A program made the translations under genes and the position numbers. Shown here in pieces: positions 29,114 through 35,930 of a DNA stretch of 64,000 nucleotides. The stretch lies in NCBI RefSeq assembly GCF_026967925.1, contig NZ_JAPVBI010000002.1, positions 671,528 to 735,527 on the forward strand, given 5' to 3'. The first letter of the stretch is position 1, and every line of letters begins with the position of its first letter. Below the pieces are notes generated by a model. The model was not told the origin of the DNA. It saw only the letters and a list, made by a program, of their open reading frames with translations, and made no database searches. The stretch comes from Modestobacter sp. VKM Ac-2985 (GTDB lineage Bacteria > Actinomycetota > Actinomycetes > Mycobacteriales > Geodermatophilaceae).

Positions 29114-29364
29114 TCGGGACGGGGACGGCCCGCTCCCAGCGGTAACCTCGCACCGGGCCGCGGGGCCACCGAGGCGCACGCCGGTTCGTGGTCGCCTGGG
29201 AGCTCCCGCACCCACCGGGCCTCTGGGGCACGGCGAAAAATGCGTTCGCCCTGGACGGCGGCGTGGCTGCTTCGGGCGGGCAACGTCGATTTGGCCGACC
29301 GGTAACGCCGTAGAGGTGGGCGCCCGCCCATGAAGCGCTCTGGGGCGAACTGAAGGGAGCGCCT

Positions 29365-29820
29365 TCAGGCGGTCGAAGCCCAGGGCTCGTACCAACGACG
29401 GCGCTCAGGGCCTTCGACCGAGCCGGTTGCAGTGCGCGGGTCAGGCACGTCGGTGCCCGTGACATGCCCTGCCTCGTCAATCTCATCGAACACCTCGCCC
29501 CTGGCGACGAGGTGCAATACCTCAAGCAGATCCTCGTCAGCCGAACGAAACGGCGGGTCGGTGTTCTCGTTGATGGGGCCAGCGATCTCGATCGGCCTGG
29601 CTTCTCCGGCAACGAAGACGTAGACCACGTAACTGTCCGCGTGACCGGCGGTCCGCACGACCACGTCTGCGGCACCGTCTGCCCGAGGCTTCAGCAGGAT
29701 CGCCTCGTTGCCGTCCGCGGCTCGCTCGTATCCCACGTCGACCATCGGCAGGAGGTCGTTTGCTTCCAGAAATCCCGCGACGACCTCGCGGACGCGTTCG
29801 CTTGGTGGTCGAGCGTTCAT
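29365..29820 (-). CDS. Hypothetical protein of the accessory segment
   Basis: A 151-residue acidic soluble protein: 'VREVVAGFLEANDLLPMVDV', 'SYVVYVFVAGEARPIEIAG' and 'ADEDLLEVLHLVARGEVFDE'. No family recognised. Base and codon use are less GC-biased than in flanking genes, fitting transferred DNA. It is the last of three minus-strand genes; 66 bases separate it from the zinc-ribbon gene. The 250 bases before its stop side (29114-29364) contain no gene. Confidence 0.65.
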   Translation of the reverse strand: MNARPPSERVREVVAGFLEANDLLPMVDVGYERAADGNEAILLKPRADGAADVVVRTAGHADSYVVYVFVAGEARPIEIAGPINENTDPPFRSADEDLLEVLHLVARGEVFDEIDEAGHVTGTDVPDPRTATGSVEGPERRRWYEPWASTA

Positions 29821-29886
29821 CTCACTCCCGGTAGCGGCGATTCAGGACGCTGTCCCTCGGCCAGCCGCCCATGGGCAGTCCCGAAC

Positions 29887-30546
29887 CTATCTCCACCTCT
29901 CTGGCACGCGGTCCTGCCAGAGACTCGGCTTCCAGTCGACTGGCTCCGCGTCGCTGGGTGACCACCAGGGACACCCCGCTTCGACCCATTTCATTCGGGT
30001 CCTGCGGACTTGGGCGAGGTTCGAGTCGTCGACACCCGACTCCGATCCGCAGCAGGGGCAGATGACGTACTTCGGGTGCCCGAGGCCGTTGAACCGTTGG
30101 TCCCCGTCGTTGTAGCCGCAGATACGGCAGTTGCTCTCGATCATGAGATGAACCGGGGGATGTCGGCGGCGGGCTTCTTCGACGTTCTTCAGCCACTCGA
30201 CTCGATCGAGGGCCGCGAGGTCGCCCTTCGTTGGTCGCCGCCGCCCCTCCGCCTTTTCCTGGCGTCGCCGTTGCGCGAAGGCCGCGCGGTACCTGAGATG
30301 GCTCTCGCGTGACTCGTCTAGCACGCGGAGGGCCTCAAGCAGTCGCGGCTCGGTCCATCGGCGCAGAAGACCGACGCCAGCGGCCTTGCGCAGCCGTGTT
30401 CTGGTGTCCAGGAAGCCCAGAGGCGCGTGGTGGTTCGCGACAAGAGAGTGCAGAGCCGTCACGCGCTGCGCCATCGGCCGGTCTGAATCGCGCACTCGGC
30501 GCACCGTCGCCGACCAACTCACGAAGCGACCGTATCCGGAGATCAC
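29887..30546 (-). CDS. Protein with two-part zinc ribbon, unknown function
   Basis: About 219 residues. The N-terminal ~140 residues are basic and helical ('RLRKAAGVGLLRRWTEPRLL', 'AFAQRRRQEKAEGRRRP'). The C-terminus carries 'CRICGYNDG' and 'VICPCCGSESGVDD', four paired CxxC cysteines likely to bind zinc, then 'WVEAGCPWWSP'. Similar cysteine-rich tails occur in uncharacterised bacterial proteins often linked to immunity or toxin neighbourhoods (loose recollection). The open frame reaches 30633; GTG 30546 or ATG 30474 are the plausible starts. It overlaps the end of the upstream gene by 140-210 bases in another frame, which is suspicious for that gene's end. Confidence 0.6.
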   Translation of the reverse strand: MISGYGRFVSWSATVRRVRDSDRPMAQRVTALHSLVANHHAPLGFLDTRTRLRKAAGVGLLRRWTEPRLLEALRVLDESRESHLRYRAAFAQRRRQEKAEGRRRPTKGDLAALDRVEWLKNVEEARRRHPPVHLMIESNCRICGYNDGDQRFNGLGHPKYVICPCCGSESGVDDSNLAQVRRTRMKWVEAGCPWWSPSDAEPVDWKPSLWQDRVPERWR

Positions 30547-31636
30547 CGCGCCAGTCGCTTGCCGGGTCTCCTGAGAGGGCGCGTCGTGGGAGCCAGGTCT
30601 TACCGCGCACAGCGACTGCGACAAGCACGCCACCGCCCGCTACTGCGGCAGGGTGGCAGGGGTCAGGCACGTTTCCAGAGGACATCGGAAGGCGTGGCGG
30701 GTCGCGGAACGCGAGGGTCGGCCGTCCCTCGGGTCCGATCACGCCAGCCAGATCGGCGCTGTAGAGCCACTCGCCTCGGACGTCCTCAGGTGCCTCGGAG
30801 TACAGCCGGACTGCGCGGACGGTGTGTGGACGCCCATTCCTTGTGCCGGTGATCTCGACGATGAAGTGACCGTCGATGACAGCCCATCCCTCGTCGTGGA
30901 CGGTCTCGGTCCAATCGTCGGGCAAGTGGGCCACAAGAACGGGGCCTGCCGGGTCGTAGCAGCCGTCGACCCCTGCGGGCGCATACGCGTTCGTGGCGCG
31001 GATGACGGTGCTGTCCTGGCGCCTAGTTGCGTCGATCGGCAGCCCGACCGCGCGTGCTTGTTCGCGCGCACTTGGATTCAGTAGCGGACCGGCGGCGGCT
31101 GCAAGCCGGTCGTCGGCTTCGGCATCACCAGGAAGAGGCTCGACCGCGACCCAGCCTTGCAGGGCCGCCATAACTTCCTCCTCGGCGATCTGGTCAACGC
31201 TCAGCGCCCCCAGAACCCCTGGCACACCGCTGCGAGAGGCCCTGATCCGCTGGCCGAAGCCGACGGTCGCACTCGTGACCATGCTGTGAACCCAGGCGGG
31301 GTCCGGAAGGGCGTTGGGTGCGACGCTCGCCAGCGTCGCGGCCTCCGGCATCTGCATGTACGCCTCGCCACGCATCGCCATCCGCAGATGACTGAGGTCG
31401 ACACGTCCGCCTGTCGCGATAGTGGCCAGGGAGGGACGCCTGGGATGGCGACTCAGAGCATCCCTGGTCGCGACCACGATGCAGTGCTGGAGGACGGCGC
31501 CCCGCAAGTCGCGCGCTGCACCGCCGGTCGGCCACTGCAACGGCAGCCCGGCCTGCGGCCCACCAGCGGGGGTGTGACCGAACTGTCGCGCGTTGCGGAA
31601 GTAGTCGATCGGTCTTCGGGCGCGGGCGGACGGCAC
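30335..31636 (-). CDS. Unknown protein, 3' end possibly frameshifted
   Basis: An open frame of up to 433 residues starting at GTG 31636 ('VPSARARRPIDYFRNARQFG'). The middle is protein-like: 'RMAMRGEAYMQMPEAATLAS', 'VDQIAEEEVMAALQGWVAVE', 'DDWTETVHDEGWAVIDGHF'. After 'TLAFRDPPRLP' (near 30690) the sequence turns Arg/Pro/Gly-rich and runs 200 bases into the next gene. A one-base shift there would instead end at TGA 30663-30665 with tail 'SDVLWKRA'. So either the gene is mutated or the annotated end is wrong. No family recognised. A LexA box lies 90 bases upstream of the start. Confidence 0.5.
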   Translation of the reverse strand: MPSARARRPIDYFRNARQFGHTPAGGPQAGLPLQWPTGGAARDLRGAVLQHCIVVATRDALSRHPRRPSLATIATGGRVDLSHLRMAMRGEAYMQMPEAATLASVAPNALPDPAWVHSMVTSATVGFGQRIRASRSGVPGVLGALSVDQIAEEEVMAALQGWVAVEPLPGDAEADDRLAAAAGPLLNPSAREQARAVGLPIDATRRQDSTVIRATNAYAPAGVDGCYDPAGPVLVAHLPDDWTETVHDEGWAVIDGHFIVEITGTRNGRPHTVRAVRLYSEAPEDVRGEWLYSADLAGVIGPEGRPTLAFRDPPRLPMSSGNVPDPCHPAAVAGGGVLVAVAVRGKTWLPRRALSGDPASDWRGDLRIRSLRELVGDGAPSARFRPADGAARDGSALSCREPPRASGLPGHQNTAAQGRWRRSSAPMDRAATA

Positions 31637-31702
31637 TTGCGGACTGTATGTGCCGGTCCGTTGATCCTCGGTGATCTCCGCTGATGGTGCCGCTCTTACG
31701 GG

Positions 31703-31738
31703 TTGACAGTCTGCTACAGCGCTCGAACATGTGTTCGA
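31703..31738 (+). promoter_or_regulatory. LexA (SOS) box with TTGACA -35
   Basis: TCGAAC-ATGT-GTTCGA (31723-31738) is a perfect match to the actinobacterial/Gram-positive SOS box core GAAC-N4-GTTC with extended flanks. TTGACA (31703-31708) on the plus strand lies upstream so that the box would cover the -10 region. It could control rightward genes (small ORF, recombinase-like operon) and possibly the divergent leftward gene. Confidence 0.75.
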
Positions 31739-31770
31739 TCGATCAGGGCCGCAGCCCCAAAGGAGGCGCC

Positions 31771-32073
31771 ATGAGGTCACGCTGCCTGGTGTCGCGCCCT
31801 TCGGCTGCCTCCGTGCGCGAGGGTCTCTCCGACCCACAAGTGGGTTCGGGGGACCCTCATCTGACCGATTCAGGCGGACACGACCCGGTCCTCGGTCAGG
31901 TAATGGGGCGTGTCGCCTTCCCCGACGTGCACGGCCTCGCCACGCCCAGCACCTACTCCTCGACCGGCCCTGTCGGCACTCGGCCGCACACCCTCCGCAC
32001 ACGTCTCGACGGCCTCCCCCTCCCGGCTGGCGGTCTGGCGCGCAGACCCACAGTCGCGCCGGTCGCCGTCTGA
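31771..32073 (+). CDS. Possible small protein after the SOS box
   Basis: ATG 31771 has a strong AAAGGAGG 6 bases upstream and lies 33 bases after the LexA box, so the initiation signals look real. The 100-residue product ('MRSRCLVSRPSAASVREGLS') is low-complexity and matches nothing I know. It is in the same frame as the recombinase-like gene, separated by one TGA (32071-32073), so it could be a leader peptide or the 5' remnant of a longer gene. Confidence 0.35.
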   Translation: MRSRCLVSRPSAASVREGLSDPQVGSGDPHLTDSGGHDPVLGQVMGRVAFPDVHGLATPSTYSSTGPVGTRPHTLRTRLDGLPLPAGGLARRPTVAPVAV

Positions 32074-32112
32074 TCCCAGGCACGCGCTCCGGCCCCATCA
32101 CAGGGAGCGGCA

Positions 32113-33210
32113 ATGCCACGAGCCGAGCAGCGTCGCCGGGGACGCCATCGGTTGCATCCACCGGGTCCGGAGGTGACGCGGCGGCGGGTCGGTGACCCAA
32201 GTCCACGAGGAAGCCTCAAGCGCCCCTCCGGGCGGTTCGCCCTCGCCGCAGACCTGACCGGCCATGGCGAGATCACTTGGGCTGACGCCCTTGCCCGAAT
32301 CGAAGCGGACTGGGACGCGCAGGTCGCCGAAGGGCGCGTGAGCGCCACCGTCATCAGGGACTACAAGCGCGAGGCGCAGCGGTTGCGCCGCCGCGCCGAG
32401 GCGCACGGCCGCCCACTGCTGGGTGAGACCGACCCAACGTTCATCTTCGAGTCTCTGCGGCTGCGTCACGCTGGCGCCCCGGCACAGCCGGTCGCCGAGA
32501 ATACCCGGCGGATGCGGTTGGCCGCCGCGCGCGCGGTGTTCCTGACTGCGCAGCGCCTGGGCCTGCACGACCAGAACCCTGCCAAGGCGGTCGAAGAGGT
32601 CCGCCGCCAAGGCCGCTATGTGCACGCCTTCACCGCCGAGCAGATCGAGCACCTCAAGCGCACCGCCCGCTACCACCTCGGAGAGACCAAGACCCCCGCA
32701 GCGCTCGCTCTGGCGCTGCTCGGCGCCAGCAGCGGCGAGAATGCCGCGGTCCGCGTCCGCGACATCGATCTGGATCGGCGCCGGGTGTGGCTGCACGACG
32801 GCGGCTACCGCACCGGCCCCCGGTGGGTGCCCATCTACGACGAGTGGTGCTCGGCCGCGCTCCGAACCCGGATCGAGGCCCTGGCTGCCACGGTCACCGC
32901 CGACGCACTACCTGACACCCCCGTCACCTACTCGTGGCGTGGCGGCAGCGGAAGTCCGGAGAGCAGGGCCGCCGCGACCGGCATGACCCTCCTGGCCCTG
33001 CTCAAGAAGGCGCGACTGCACCAACCCGGCGTCACTCGCGCGGAGTCGATCCGCGAACACTTGGCCCACCGGGTCTTCGCCGAGACCGGCCGGGTCGAGG
33101 CGGTCGCCATCCGGCTCGGCCTGGCCAGCCTGGACGCAGCAGCCCACCTCGTCGGCTACGACTGGGTCGCCAAGCACACCGTCGACACAGACGGTCCTCC
33201 GGCGCCGTGA
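32113..33210 (+). CDS. Tyrosine-recombinase-like protein lacking the usual catalytic motifs
   Basis: A 365-residue protein with the layout of phage integrases: an SAM-like core-binding domain (about residues 50-150, 'ITWADALARIEADWDAQVAE', 'VSATVIRDYKREAQRLR') and a catalytic-like domain ('AFTAEQIEHLKRTARYH', 'ALALLGASSGENAAVRVRDI', 'LGLASLDAAAHLVGYDW'). At the place where active enzymes have G-x-R-x-x-E it reads S-S-G-E, and the H-x-x-R box is not intact, so it may be inactive or a divergent class. It overlaps the next gene by GTGA, a fixed pairing with a DDE-type gene. It is probably under the SOS box upstream. Confidence 0.65.
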   Translation: MPRAEQRRRGRHRLHPPGPEVTRRRVGDPSPRGSLKRPSGRFALAADLTGHGEITWADALARIEADWDAQVAEGRVSATVIRDYKREAQRLRRRAEAHGRPLLGETDPTFIFESLRLRHAGAPAQPVAENTRRMRLAAARAVFLTAQRLGLHDQNPAKAVEEVRRQGRYVHAFTAEQIEHLKRTARYHLGETKTPAALALALLGASSGENAAVRVRDIDLDRRRVWLHDGGYRTGPRWVPIYDEWCSAALRTRIEALAATVTADALPDTPVTYSWRGGSGSPESRAAATGMTLLALLKKARLHQPGVTRAESIREHLAHRVFAETGRVEAVAIRLGLASLDAAAHLVGYDWVAKHTVDTDGPPAP

Positions 33211-34936
33211 CCGCACCACGCCGCCGGAAGCCCAGCGGAAGTACGTCTTCCTCGGCTTCGAATCCGCGGTTCCGGAATGCGGAGGCGCTGTTTGCCCGCA
33301 TCCCGGCCGAGAGGCTGAATGCGGCCCTGGCGGCGACGACCCCGTCGTCGCGCTACCGCCATGCCCAGACCCGGATCGGGGAGGAACACTCGGCCATCAC
33401 CGATGTGGCCCAACTGTTCGCTCTTCCCACGTCCCCTTGGTTCTGGGACCTGGTGAGACTGCTCCCTGGCAACGACCTCACGCAGCAGCGCCGCGGTCGC
33501 CCAGCGCACTATCCCGACTGGTTGTTGTTCCTGCTGTGCTGCGCCTCGGCGATCACGGGAATCTGCTCTCGGGCCGCCGCTGCTGCCCTGCTGGAGCAAC
33601 CACATCTGTGGACGCAGTTCGCCGCACACGTCGACCGCTACGTGCCCGACGGAATGACCCGCATCGCCGACCTGACCCCGCGCCCGGATCGTCCGGCCCG
33701 GCTAAAGGCCCGTCCCGCCGCACCGCCGCGACCCACGCCCGCCAGGGCCATGCAACCGCGCGCCGCCGCGGCAACCCGGCTGCCAGCCCAGCCTCCGATG
33801 CCTGCACCCGCCCAACACCATCTGGACTACTTCGTGCTCCGTTGGCGGGGCCTCGACAAGGCCGGTCAGTCACTGCCACCCGGCCATCCCTGGCATGGCC
33901 TGGATCATCGCCGAGTTCGAGACGCTCGCCGTCGGCCAGGCGCAACAAATGGGACTGCTCGACCCTGCGCTGGACTTCCAGTAACAGCGGCCGGACCGCA
34001 GCCAGTACATCGGCTTCGACGGAACCGTGATGCCCCTGAGCCGTCGCCACAAGGGAGACACCGCCCAGGAGTGGAAGACCGGTGAAGGCCGGATGGTGCT
34101 CGGCTCCAAGTACACGACCCGCTTCGACCCGCTTCGACGGTGAAGCCCATTCCCGGATCTGCCTCGGCTTCGCTCAGACCGGCAGGAGTCAGGAGTCGGT
34201 GTACGCCGACGAGGAGAAGGCCGTCCTCGACATGGCCGTTCGCCTGCGGCGCCTGTCCGGTGGTGGCATCAAGGGGATCGTCGTGGACAGCGCGGTTCGC
34301 GGCCACGCGGTCAGTCGCCTCCAGCGGCAGTGGATCACCGTCGTGAACTACCCGCACGCGCAGTCCAACCCCGACGGCGGTCCGGCCAACCGACTCAACG
34401 CCACTCGCCAGGAGAAGGACCACCTGCGTCGGATCTCCGTTCACGCCGACGAGAACGGCACCCCCTGCGAGCACTTCATCTACGCCTATGGCGGCGAACT
34501 CGTCCAACTGGTCGAGACTGACGATGGCCACTCCATCGTCCGGCTCCCTGTCTCCAAGTACGAGCAGCGGCCCAACCGTGACGGCACCCGGCGCGAGTAC
34601 AAGACCGTCCAGATCGACTGCGACATCGCAGGCTCCTACACCGAACGCGTCGCCCTGTTCCACACCGACAGCACCAGCAACGACCCCCAGTACAACTGGG
34701 GAGAGGTCGTACGCGTCTTCGCGCCCACCACCGTTGAGTTCCAGTACCTCTACGGCGCCCGCAACGACACCGAGTCCCGGCACGCTGACCTCAAGAGTCG
34801 GATCAAGTACCTGCCACCCGACATCCCCGGACAAGACCTTCGGATGCTTAGCGCGATGGTCACCGCCAACGCCTTGGCCTGGCAGGTGCACCTGCAAGCC
34901 CGCGAACAACCGAACGTCTTCGACGGAACCGCCTGA
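33207..34936 (+). pseudogene. Broken DDE-transposase-like gene
   Basis: Starts at GTG 33207 overlapping the recombinase-like gene. Frame 1 of the protein covers residues like 'YPDWLLFLLCCASAITGICS' and 'TQFAAHVDRYVPDGMT' to about 33890; the continuation lies in the next frame ('WIIAEFETLAVGQAQQMGLL') until TAA 33982-33984, then 'YIGFDGTVMPLSRRHKGD' to 34128; a 10-bp tandem duplication then moves the rest to the third frame (to TGA 34936). The pieces together hold candidate DDE acids: 'FDGT', 'GIVVDSAVRG' and 'NDTESRHADLKSR'. At least two shifts and one stop, so it is inactive unless heavily recoded. Related uncharacterised transposase-like proteins paired with an integrase-like gene occur in other actinobacteria (from memory). 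Confidence 0.65.
34117..34136 (+). repeat. 10-bp tandem duplication causing a frameshift
   Basis: ACCCGCTTCG is present twice in a row (34117-34126, 34127-34136). Removing one copy joins 'KYTTRF' to 'DGEAHSRICLGFAQ' in a single frame. Confidence 0.85.
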
Positions 34937-35111
34937 CCACTGGGCCCCTAACCCGCGCCCGAGCACGCGGACCGGTCTGTCCGCCGCCGTCTGAACCCCC
35001 TCCAGACCCCGTCCCGCGCCGCTGACGATGGCAGGATGAGGTCGATCCAGGCCCACAGGACCTTGATCAACGAGGCGCGGCGAGTTTTCTGAGACTTTGT
35101 CGCCGTGTCCC

Positions 35112-35184
35112 GGGCCTCTAGCTCAACTGGCAGAGCAGCGGACTTTTAATCCGCGGGTTGTGGGTTCGATCCCCACGGGGCCCA
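35112..35184 (+). tRNA. tRNA-Lys (TTT)
   Basis: Acceptor GGGCCTC/GGGGCCC with one G-T pair, D-arm GCTC/GAGC, anticodon stem GCGGA/TCCGC with loop CTTTTAA (TTT), T-arm TGTGG-GTTCGAT-CCCCA. 73 bases, followed by encoded CC. It borders the accessory segment; no obvious attachment-site duplicate was found. Confidence 0.95.
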
Positions 35185-35930
35185 CCGCGTCGGCCTGTGC
35201 GTTCGCGTCTCTACCACCACCGCCGAGTGGTGACTGGCAGCAGCCGTTGGCAGCGCCGGGGCATCCCCCGGGCTCCTCAACGTCCCGTCAGCACGCGTGG
35301 GTGAACATCAGCGGCAGAGCGCCGATCTCATCGGCCGCGGCCGTACCCTTCGCGCCCGACCGCTCGACCCAAGGGGATAACTCGCGTTTGTCGGTAGCGC
35401 AGCGGCGGCCGCCAGCTGTGCCGGCCGGGAGGGCCGGCGGCTGATGGACGGGGGAGCCTGGCCCTCGGCGCGCCGTAGCGACTGGGCTCCTGGCCCCACC
35501 GTGGTCCGGGCAGTGCGTCCTCGCTGACCATCAGGACAGGAGACCTCACCGTCGGGTTCCCCGATCCCACCGGGACAGCGCAGCTGCCACGACAGGAAAG
35601 CGCGGGACGTGCCATTCACTGTCCGCGAGTCGTGGCGCCGATGCGTACGGGGCCGCCTGCGGAATGGCGGGCACAACATGCCGGTGGAACCGTCCAGATC
35701 TTGATGACCGTCCCGTGATCTGGGAAAAGGCCAGCTCAGCGCCGCACGGATGTCGACAAGGCGGCTGCTGAGAGGCCGGTCATCGACCGTTCGGATGGGT
35801 TGCACAACGATTCGGTGACGGGACTGTGATGACGGTGTGAAAGCGCGTCGTCCGGCGCGGCGGGAGCCCTAGCTTTTGGCATGTCCGCGGCACTTCCCCA
35901 GCCGCGACGGACTGCCCCGAGGAGCCATCT
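35185..35930. other. Gene-free interval after tRNA-Lys
   Basis: About 745 bases in which I see no convincing gene on either strand; open frames are Arg/Pro/Ser-rich noise. It holds short hairpins (for example near 35425-35445) and, at its right end, an AT-richer stretch (35795-35880) likely to be the promoter for the next operon, including GTTG-CA-CAAC. Confidence 0.5.

Follow-up and report, generated by a model that had tools for sequence, protein, structure and literature searches.

The 64,000-nucleotide stretch of the Modestobacter sp. VKM Ac-2985 genome analysed here (contig NZ_JAPVBI010000002.1, positions 671,528 to 735,527; hereafter the window) carries a decayed DNA transposon of 5,887 bp at positions 29225-35111, inserted at the 5′ end of a tRNA-Lys gene (anticodon TTT, 35112-35186, plus strand) and encoding a tyrosine-recombinase-fold protein followed by a DDE (Asp-Asp-Glu) transposase. 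The original prediction had recognised a mobile element within 31703-34936; the whole element reaches beyond this region, and its ends, the tRNA gene and the target duplication had been missed. Its limits are given by three genomes of the same genus with an empty site (L140, L154 and L147; L numbers label the stretches of relative genomes fetched for comparison with the window), in which the left flank up to 29224 joins the tRNA-Lys gene directly. The G+C content of the element is 68.3%, versus 74-75% in the 10-kb flanks. The element begins with GGGGCACGGCGA and its right end reads GGGACACGGCGA inward; the first 12 nucleotides of the left terminal inverted repeat (GGGGCACGGCGAAAAA, 29225-29240, plus strand) match the right one (35100-35111, minus strand) at 11 positions. 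The sequence GGGCCTCT, identical to nucleotides 1-8 of the tRNA, flanks the element on both sides (29217-29224 and 35112-35119), so that inverted repeats, a flanking target duplication and an empty site are all present in the window. A 10-bp direct repeat is also found at the ends; we take the duplication as 8 bp because only this length places the inverted repeats in register in the window, L203 and L206. The right end of the element abuts the start of the tRNA-Lys gene, which is intact according to ARAGORN. In sibling genomes (e.g., G101:C1:694711-696355), partial 3′ copies of the same tRNA-Lys gene occur downstream, as integrase islands leave them, suggesting that this tRNA gene may be used from both sides.

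The first gene of the pair (32113-33210, plus strand) encodes a protein of 365 aa, the proposed target selector, whose profile matches to XerC and XerD are weak (best match XerC, E value 6e-5). Its predicted fold is clearly that of a tyrosine recombinase, with core-binding and catalytic domains, as had been supposed from the sequence; among the matches listed by Foldseek and VIA-align, it resembles both active integrases and the phage regulators SroF, YopR and MrpR. The usual recombinase catalytic motifs, already reported as lacking, are indeed absent. None of the 31 aligned recombinase-like proteins has the full set of Arg, His, Arg, His/Trp and Tyr, and Arg-I, His-II, His-III and the nucleophilic Tyr are each found in 0/31 (catalytic columns were placed by alignment, the Tyr column by motif spacing). 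The description of the element as one with two enzymes could therefore not be maintained, the recombinase-like partner being without catalytic residues in 31/31 proteins. A database search with this protein, in which only candidates sharing most words were scored, retrieved at least 49 proteins including that of the window.

The second gene (33207-34936, plus strand) starts with a GTG that overlaps the TGA stop of the first (GTGA, 33207-33210), as originally described. It is broken by two frameshifts, one between 33872 and 33904 and the other near 34120, with an in-frame TAA between them at 33982-33984; open, full-length relatives, whose existence had been anticipated, occur in L017 and L019. 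The predicted fold of the transposase is Tn5-like, with an RNase H fold and a beta insertion domain, and the D, D, E residues are conserved: D288 and D377 are invariant and E542 is kept in at least 90% of the sequences in one alignment (A3), and D377 and E542 are invariant in another (A2). The pieces of the window transposase gave only sub-threshold matches to curated families. The transposases of L019, L017, L021 and L022 have no match in Pfam, that of L026, a distant member, reaches 22.9 bits with DDE_Tnp_1, just under the cut-off of 23, and we found no match in NCBIfam (L019, L017, L022, L026 and L082) or in PHROGs (L019, L017, L022 and L026). A PDB profile search returned one chance-level match and no sequence match to Tn5.

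Adjacent readable copies of both proteins occur in 29 loci across Actinomycetota, two of them near-identical, which bears out the predicted co-occurrence. Among the ten relatives whose DNA was examined first (L017-L026, L017 and L018 being near-identical), a recombinase-like gene is upstream of the transposase gene in 10/10. The overlap, whose constancy the original prediction proposed to check, proved common but not universal: a 4-nt in-frame overlap is present in 17 of the 29 loci, including one doubtful case (L083, with no start codon listed there), and the others mostly show short gaps or other overlaps. We thus rejected it as a universal trait. Transposase relatives were detected in 8/112 genomes of the family, at least 12/397 of the order, at least 18/394 of the class and at least 20/396 of the phylum; each count includes the genome of the window, the last three concern sampled genomes and are lower bounds, since three or four first-look candidates were scored per genome.

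The position beside a tRNA gene recurs among these relatives. Of 57 transposase C-termini in the loci, six were dropped (less than 700 bp of contig downstream), leaving 51 ends, which include second copies in a locus and closely related genomes. A tRNA gene on the same strand starts within 700 bp downstream in 28 of these 51 ends, all in one orientation, at 179-279 bp after the transposase match in 27/28 and at 572 bp in L085. No tRNA gene was found on the opposite strand within 700 bp, or upstream of the pair, at any of the 51 ends (the 700 bp counted as upstream ended at the recombinase-like gene, or 1.5 kb ahead of the match in loci where that gene was not found). L098, in which the transposase match stops early, stands outside the 57 ends; its tRNA gene starts 50 bp after the open frame. 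The 31 tRNA targets comprise Arg-CCT (13), Lys-TTT (7), Thr-GGT (4), Phe-GAA (3) and single cases of Gly-TCC, Gly-CCC, Ala-TGC and Arg-TCT. All 31 contain TAGCTCA at about nucleotides 8-14, versus 43/69 other tRNAs in the loci (Fisher p 1e-5; 18/26 by distinct sequence), a background in which Lys, Asp and Phe genes of a single genus are abundant. The sequence preceding the tRNA is also characteristic: CCC is present in the last six bases in 25/28 non-redundant ends versus 12/57 other tRNAs, and TTTY occurs 1.6 times per 50 nt before tRNAs at element ends versus 0.18 before others. The right-end consensus thus stands directly before tRNA nucleotide 1 in most tRNA-side cases and is rare before other tRNAs.

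We looked for left ends in 25 of 32 tRNA-side loci, seven having been dropped for less than 1.8 kb of upstream sequence; the scan took tRNA nucleotides 1-8 as the duplication and accepted candidates at z of at least 3.8, with no correction for multiple testing. A copy of nucleotides 1-8 followed by sequence resembling the right end was accepted in six loci, delimiting elements of 5,887 bp (window), 3,378 bp (L203), 1,410 bp (L206), 919 bp (L215), 26.8 kb (L082) and 17.3 kb (L096, 7/8 bases). The termini and duplication that the original prediction proposed to seek in relatives are established in the window. Support is weak for L098 (11.0 kb), and one-mismatch candidates in L091 and L202 (z 3.2 and 3.6) were not accepted. 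In L082, L096, L206 and L215, right-end-like sequence precedes the left duplication, which indicates that elements stand in tandem at one tRNA gene. L096 presents three such right-end/duplication/left-end junctions, about 17.3, 34.7 and 37.2 kb upstream of its tRNA-Lys gene, corresponding to elements of about 17.3, 17.4 and 2.5 kb.

The larger elements carry various putative cargo genes; for L082, L096 and L098, open reading frames (ORFs) were picked by a simple script. ORFs of the L096 element match PADLOC models for a cyclic-oligonucleotide-based anti-phage signalling system (CBASS) cyclase, a ThsB-like TIR protein, a type II restriction enzyme, a Fic-type candidate (PDC-S04) and LmuA. Of the ORFs in the L098 element, one matches cytosine methyltransferases and another, ATPase-like by eye, has a weak restriction-enzyme match. 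The L082 element seems, by eye only, to contain a cluster of transport and catabolic genes. L169 was grouped with L096 and L098 as tRNA-side elements with ORFs matching defence models (CBASS cyclase, TIR, type II restriction, Fic-type, LmuA and C5 methyltransferase). In the window, the possible cargo lies on the minus strand, in an ORF of 151 aa (29365-29820), one of 248 aa with a Cys-rich stretch (29887-30633) and part of a long open frame with an uncertain start (30335-31696), the last without an NCBIfam match near cut-off. The six minus-strand ORF stretches of this region (29365-31696) have no match in Pfam, and the other ORFs of the window element none above cut-off, with one sub-threshold match to DUF4768.

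These observations lead us to a model in which the dead recombinase-fold protein probably recognises the tRNA gene and recruits its Tn5-like partner transposase, which would join the element ends at tRNA nucleotides 1-8. TAGCTCA, at about nucleotides 8-14, is a candidate contact of the recombinase-like protein on the tRNA gene. The transposase, brought in through a direct contact between the two proteins, would proceed by cut-and-paste as in Tn5. Each insertion would set the right end against the tRNA and restore the latter; this would leave the target free to receive more elements and would account for the arrays. The attribution of target choice to the recombinase-like protein draws on pair comparisons, which are only suggestive, on its predicted fold and on the TnsF precedent discussed below, which together favour it as the probable selector. 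In two close pairs of loci with different tRNA types (Arg/Lys and Arg/Phe), the transposases share 61-62% of residues and the recombinase-like proteins 42-43%, whereas four pairs with the same type show about equal values (transposase/recombinase-like 80/82, 46/44, 40/49 and 41/42).

Several observations weigh against this model. The pair comparisons behind the putative role of the recombinase-like protein are not uniform: two same-type pairs (62/51 and 43/36) lean in the same direction as the different-type pairs, and no excess is seen in an Arg/Gly pair of greater distance (ratio 1.05). In trees of 17 loci, tRNA type is not significantly clustered for either protein, with seven changes each, a value as low being obtained in 86/200 shuffles for the recombinase-like protein and 62/200 for the transposase. 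(An apparent sorting by tRNA type on a 24-locus tree of the recombinase-like protein, with nine changes and 1/200 shuffles as low, was discarded: it rests on a clade without tRNA genes, and no signal is seen with the 17 tRNA-bearing loci.) Arg-II is kept in 26/31 recombinase-like proteins and a nearby Tyr (Y349) in 24/31. No tRNA gene lies within 700 bp at 23 of the 51 ends; some of these are array members or second copies, which does not explain the first-type loci L019-L025, L081, L089 and L200. Among them, L021-L023, L081, L089 and L200 group in a single clade of the recombinase-like tree and L019 branches beside Lys-type proteins, L020, L024 and L025 being outside this tree. An Rfam scan of nine of these tRNA-less loci (all except L020) detected no adjacent RNA, its one match being a tRNA of L024 far from the pair; such members may use another site, occupy a deeper position in an array or have been domesticated. 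Finally, the empty site is known for the window only, and left ends were not found in 18/25 loci by the scan presuming a duplication of nucleotides 1-8. Loose left-end matches are not clearly above those for shuffled duplications in most loci (1 versus a mean of 1.3 in the window, 5 versus 2.4 in L096), so that left boundaries outside the window rest on the similarity of the ends.

In the main rival explanation, the tRNA gene is recognised by the transposase without help, as has been proposed for the Dada transposons of fish, the dead recombinase-like protein being a repressor or an end-binding accessory protein, by analogy with SroF and MrpR. We regard it as unlikely, though it is the most serious alternative: the 17/29 overlaps with the transposase start hint at a partner made in step with the transposase and not at a regulator, two close pairs show greater divergence of the recombinase-like protein upon a change of tRNA type, and TnsF indicates that a dead recombinase can serve as a selector. 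tRNA genes are classic integrase targets, and the fold match to active integrases, like the island-type partial tRNA-Lys 3′ repeats of sibling genomes, would fit an ordinary integrase island integrated at a tRNA attachment site by a recombinase that is active or supplied in trans, with the transposase as a passenger. However, the window element lies at the 5′ end of the tRNA gene, not at its 3′ end or another attachment core, with in-register inverted repeats and an 8-bp duplication, which is the signature of a DDE transposase; the catalytic residues are missing in 31/31 aligned proteins, and in many lineages the transposase is again accompanied by similar right ends, making this explanation highly improbable. 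tRNA flanks are also common safe harbours, and elements inserted at random with no target recognition could have survived preferentially beside them. Such a survivor bias appears equally improbable, since the 28/28 tRNA-side cases share one orientation, the right-end consensus stands directly before tRNA nucleotide 1 in 25/28 non-redundant ends and the duplication of the window, set by the empty site, begins at nucleotide 1; survival alone would not yield one orientation and one position.

The original prediction had instead placed the pair under SOS control, release of LexA turning on both genes and DNA damage triggering mobilisation of a two-enzyme element. The features on which it was based are present: a promoter-like TTGACA (31703-31708, plus strand) and an exact LexA-type palindrome, TCGAACATGTGTTCGA (31723-31738), are located 375-410 bp upstream of the recombinase-like gene, with a small ORF between. 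This palindrome is the sole exact copy in the genome, which has six more sites at one mismatch. However, no box with at most one mismatch occurs in the examined upstream region of the relatives (0/27), where the best LexA-box scores are mostly at the level of shuffled sequences, and we rejected LexA control as a trait of the family. The small ORF (100 aa, 31771-32073, plus strand; no family match) directly follows the box and has a strong ribosome-binding-like site, AAAGGAGG; the box may thus regulate the small ORF instead of the pair, or else serve a minus-strand gene; moreover, the window transposase is broken. Damage-induced mobilisation is therefore very unlikely; the box may be relevant to the window copy but is not part of the family. 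A small ORF seems, by eye, to precede the recombinase-like gene in L017 too.

The model of a dead recombinase guiding a transposase can be compared with several known systems. Non-catalytic DNA-binding regulators of phages, SroF, YopR and MrpR, have the same predicted fold as the window protein, and we know of none that is coupled to a transposase. CRISPR-associated Tn7-like transposons home to tRNA genes as an attachment site, as in the window family, but with a different machinery (TnsB, TnsC, TniQ and Cas proteins). The family differs from Tn5/IS4-type transposases by its site-specific target, its partner protein, the lack of a Tn5 sequence match in the PDB profile search and a duplication of 8 bp, that of Tn5 being 9 bp. 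To our knowledge, the Dada transposons of fish have no recombinase partner. These eukaryotic DNA transposons are reported to insert into several types of tRNA genes, inside the gene around the anticodon or A box (PMC8869645), so that the likeness is one of target, by analogy. ISAjo2, of the IS1202 family, is reported to insert in an orientation-specific manner beside a tyrosine-recombinase binding site, with a proposed role of host XerC at dif-like sites, a 5-bp duplication, a TnsB-like transposase and no recombinase-like partner of its own (PMC10132070), again an analogy.

The closest precedent is TnsF, an inactivated tyrosine-recombinase protein reported to target the Tn7-like Tn6022 to comM (Faure et al., 2023; PMC10293859). 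In both cases a catalytically inactive recombinase-derived protein is associated with a DDE transposon and encoded beside the transposition genes, the selector role being conjectural here. TnsF, which works with TnsA, TnsB, TnsC and TniQ, combines zinc fingers with a partial catalytic domain (PMC10293859), whereas the window family has a recombinase fold of full length, only one transposase, of Tn5 fold, and a location at tRNA 5′ ends rather than in comM. No TnsA, TnsB, TnsC or TniQ was detected by Pfam in the ORFs of the window element. The principle of the selector is thus already known from TnsF, and the machine differs. The claim that the element is undescribed holds in part: no curated transposase family was found, with L026 just under the DDE_Tnp_1 cut-off, but the targeting principle is not new. 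No description of the family was found in the literature by title or start of abstract among the matches listed, a search whose scope left outside most subscription papers and all bioRxiv preprints. Whether these elements form a separate bacterial transposon superfamily, homing to the first base of tRNA genes by means of an integrase-derived, dead and replaceable targeting subunit and one Tn5-fold transposase, without Tn7 machinery, and stacking unnamed defence and catabolic islands upstream of one tRNA across Actinomycetota, appears to us close to an even question.

Many genomic islands lie next to tRNA genes and are credited to integrases acting at the 3′ end; the family would represent a second route, in which a DDE transposon uses the 5′ end. 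Should the dead recombinase prove to be the selector, it would be a further conversion of an integrase into a guide after TnsF, in a much simpler two-protein machine. The family would allow a direct test of how a recruited DNA-binding protein steers a transposase and could yield a compact site-specific insertion tool for actinobacterial tRNA genes. The arrays are also a place to seek new anti-phage genes.

Distant transposase relatives are present on plasmids of Streptomyces and Mycobacterium (e.g., NZ_CP074103.1, NC_022654.1 and NC_020275.1), with six records in the search of each genus, at 24-29% identity and annotated as hypothetical proteins; plasmids are a possible route between cells. 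None of 50 pattern matches in viral contigs was a relative. A second, distant transposase-like gene is located about 1-3 kb past the first pair in L021 (10803-12479), L022 (5646-4135), L024 (5288-3780) and L025 (7136-8632). In L021 (13467-13889), L022 (3802-3002) and L025 (8945-9781), as well as in L097 (7091-9397), where it stands alone, this distant type shows the reverse order, with a recombinase-like gene after the transposase-like gene. The arrangement in L021, L022, L024 and L025 may correspond to a two-pair element.

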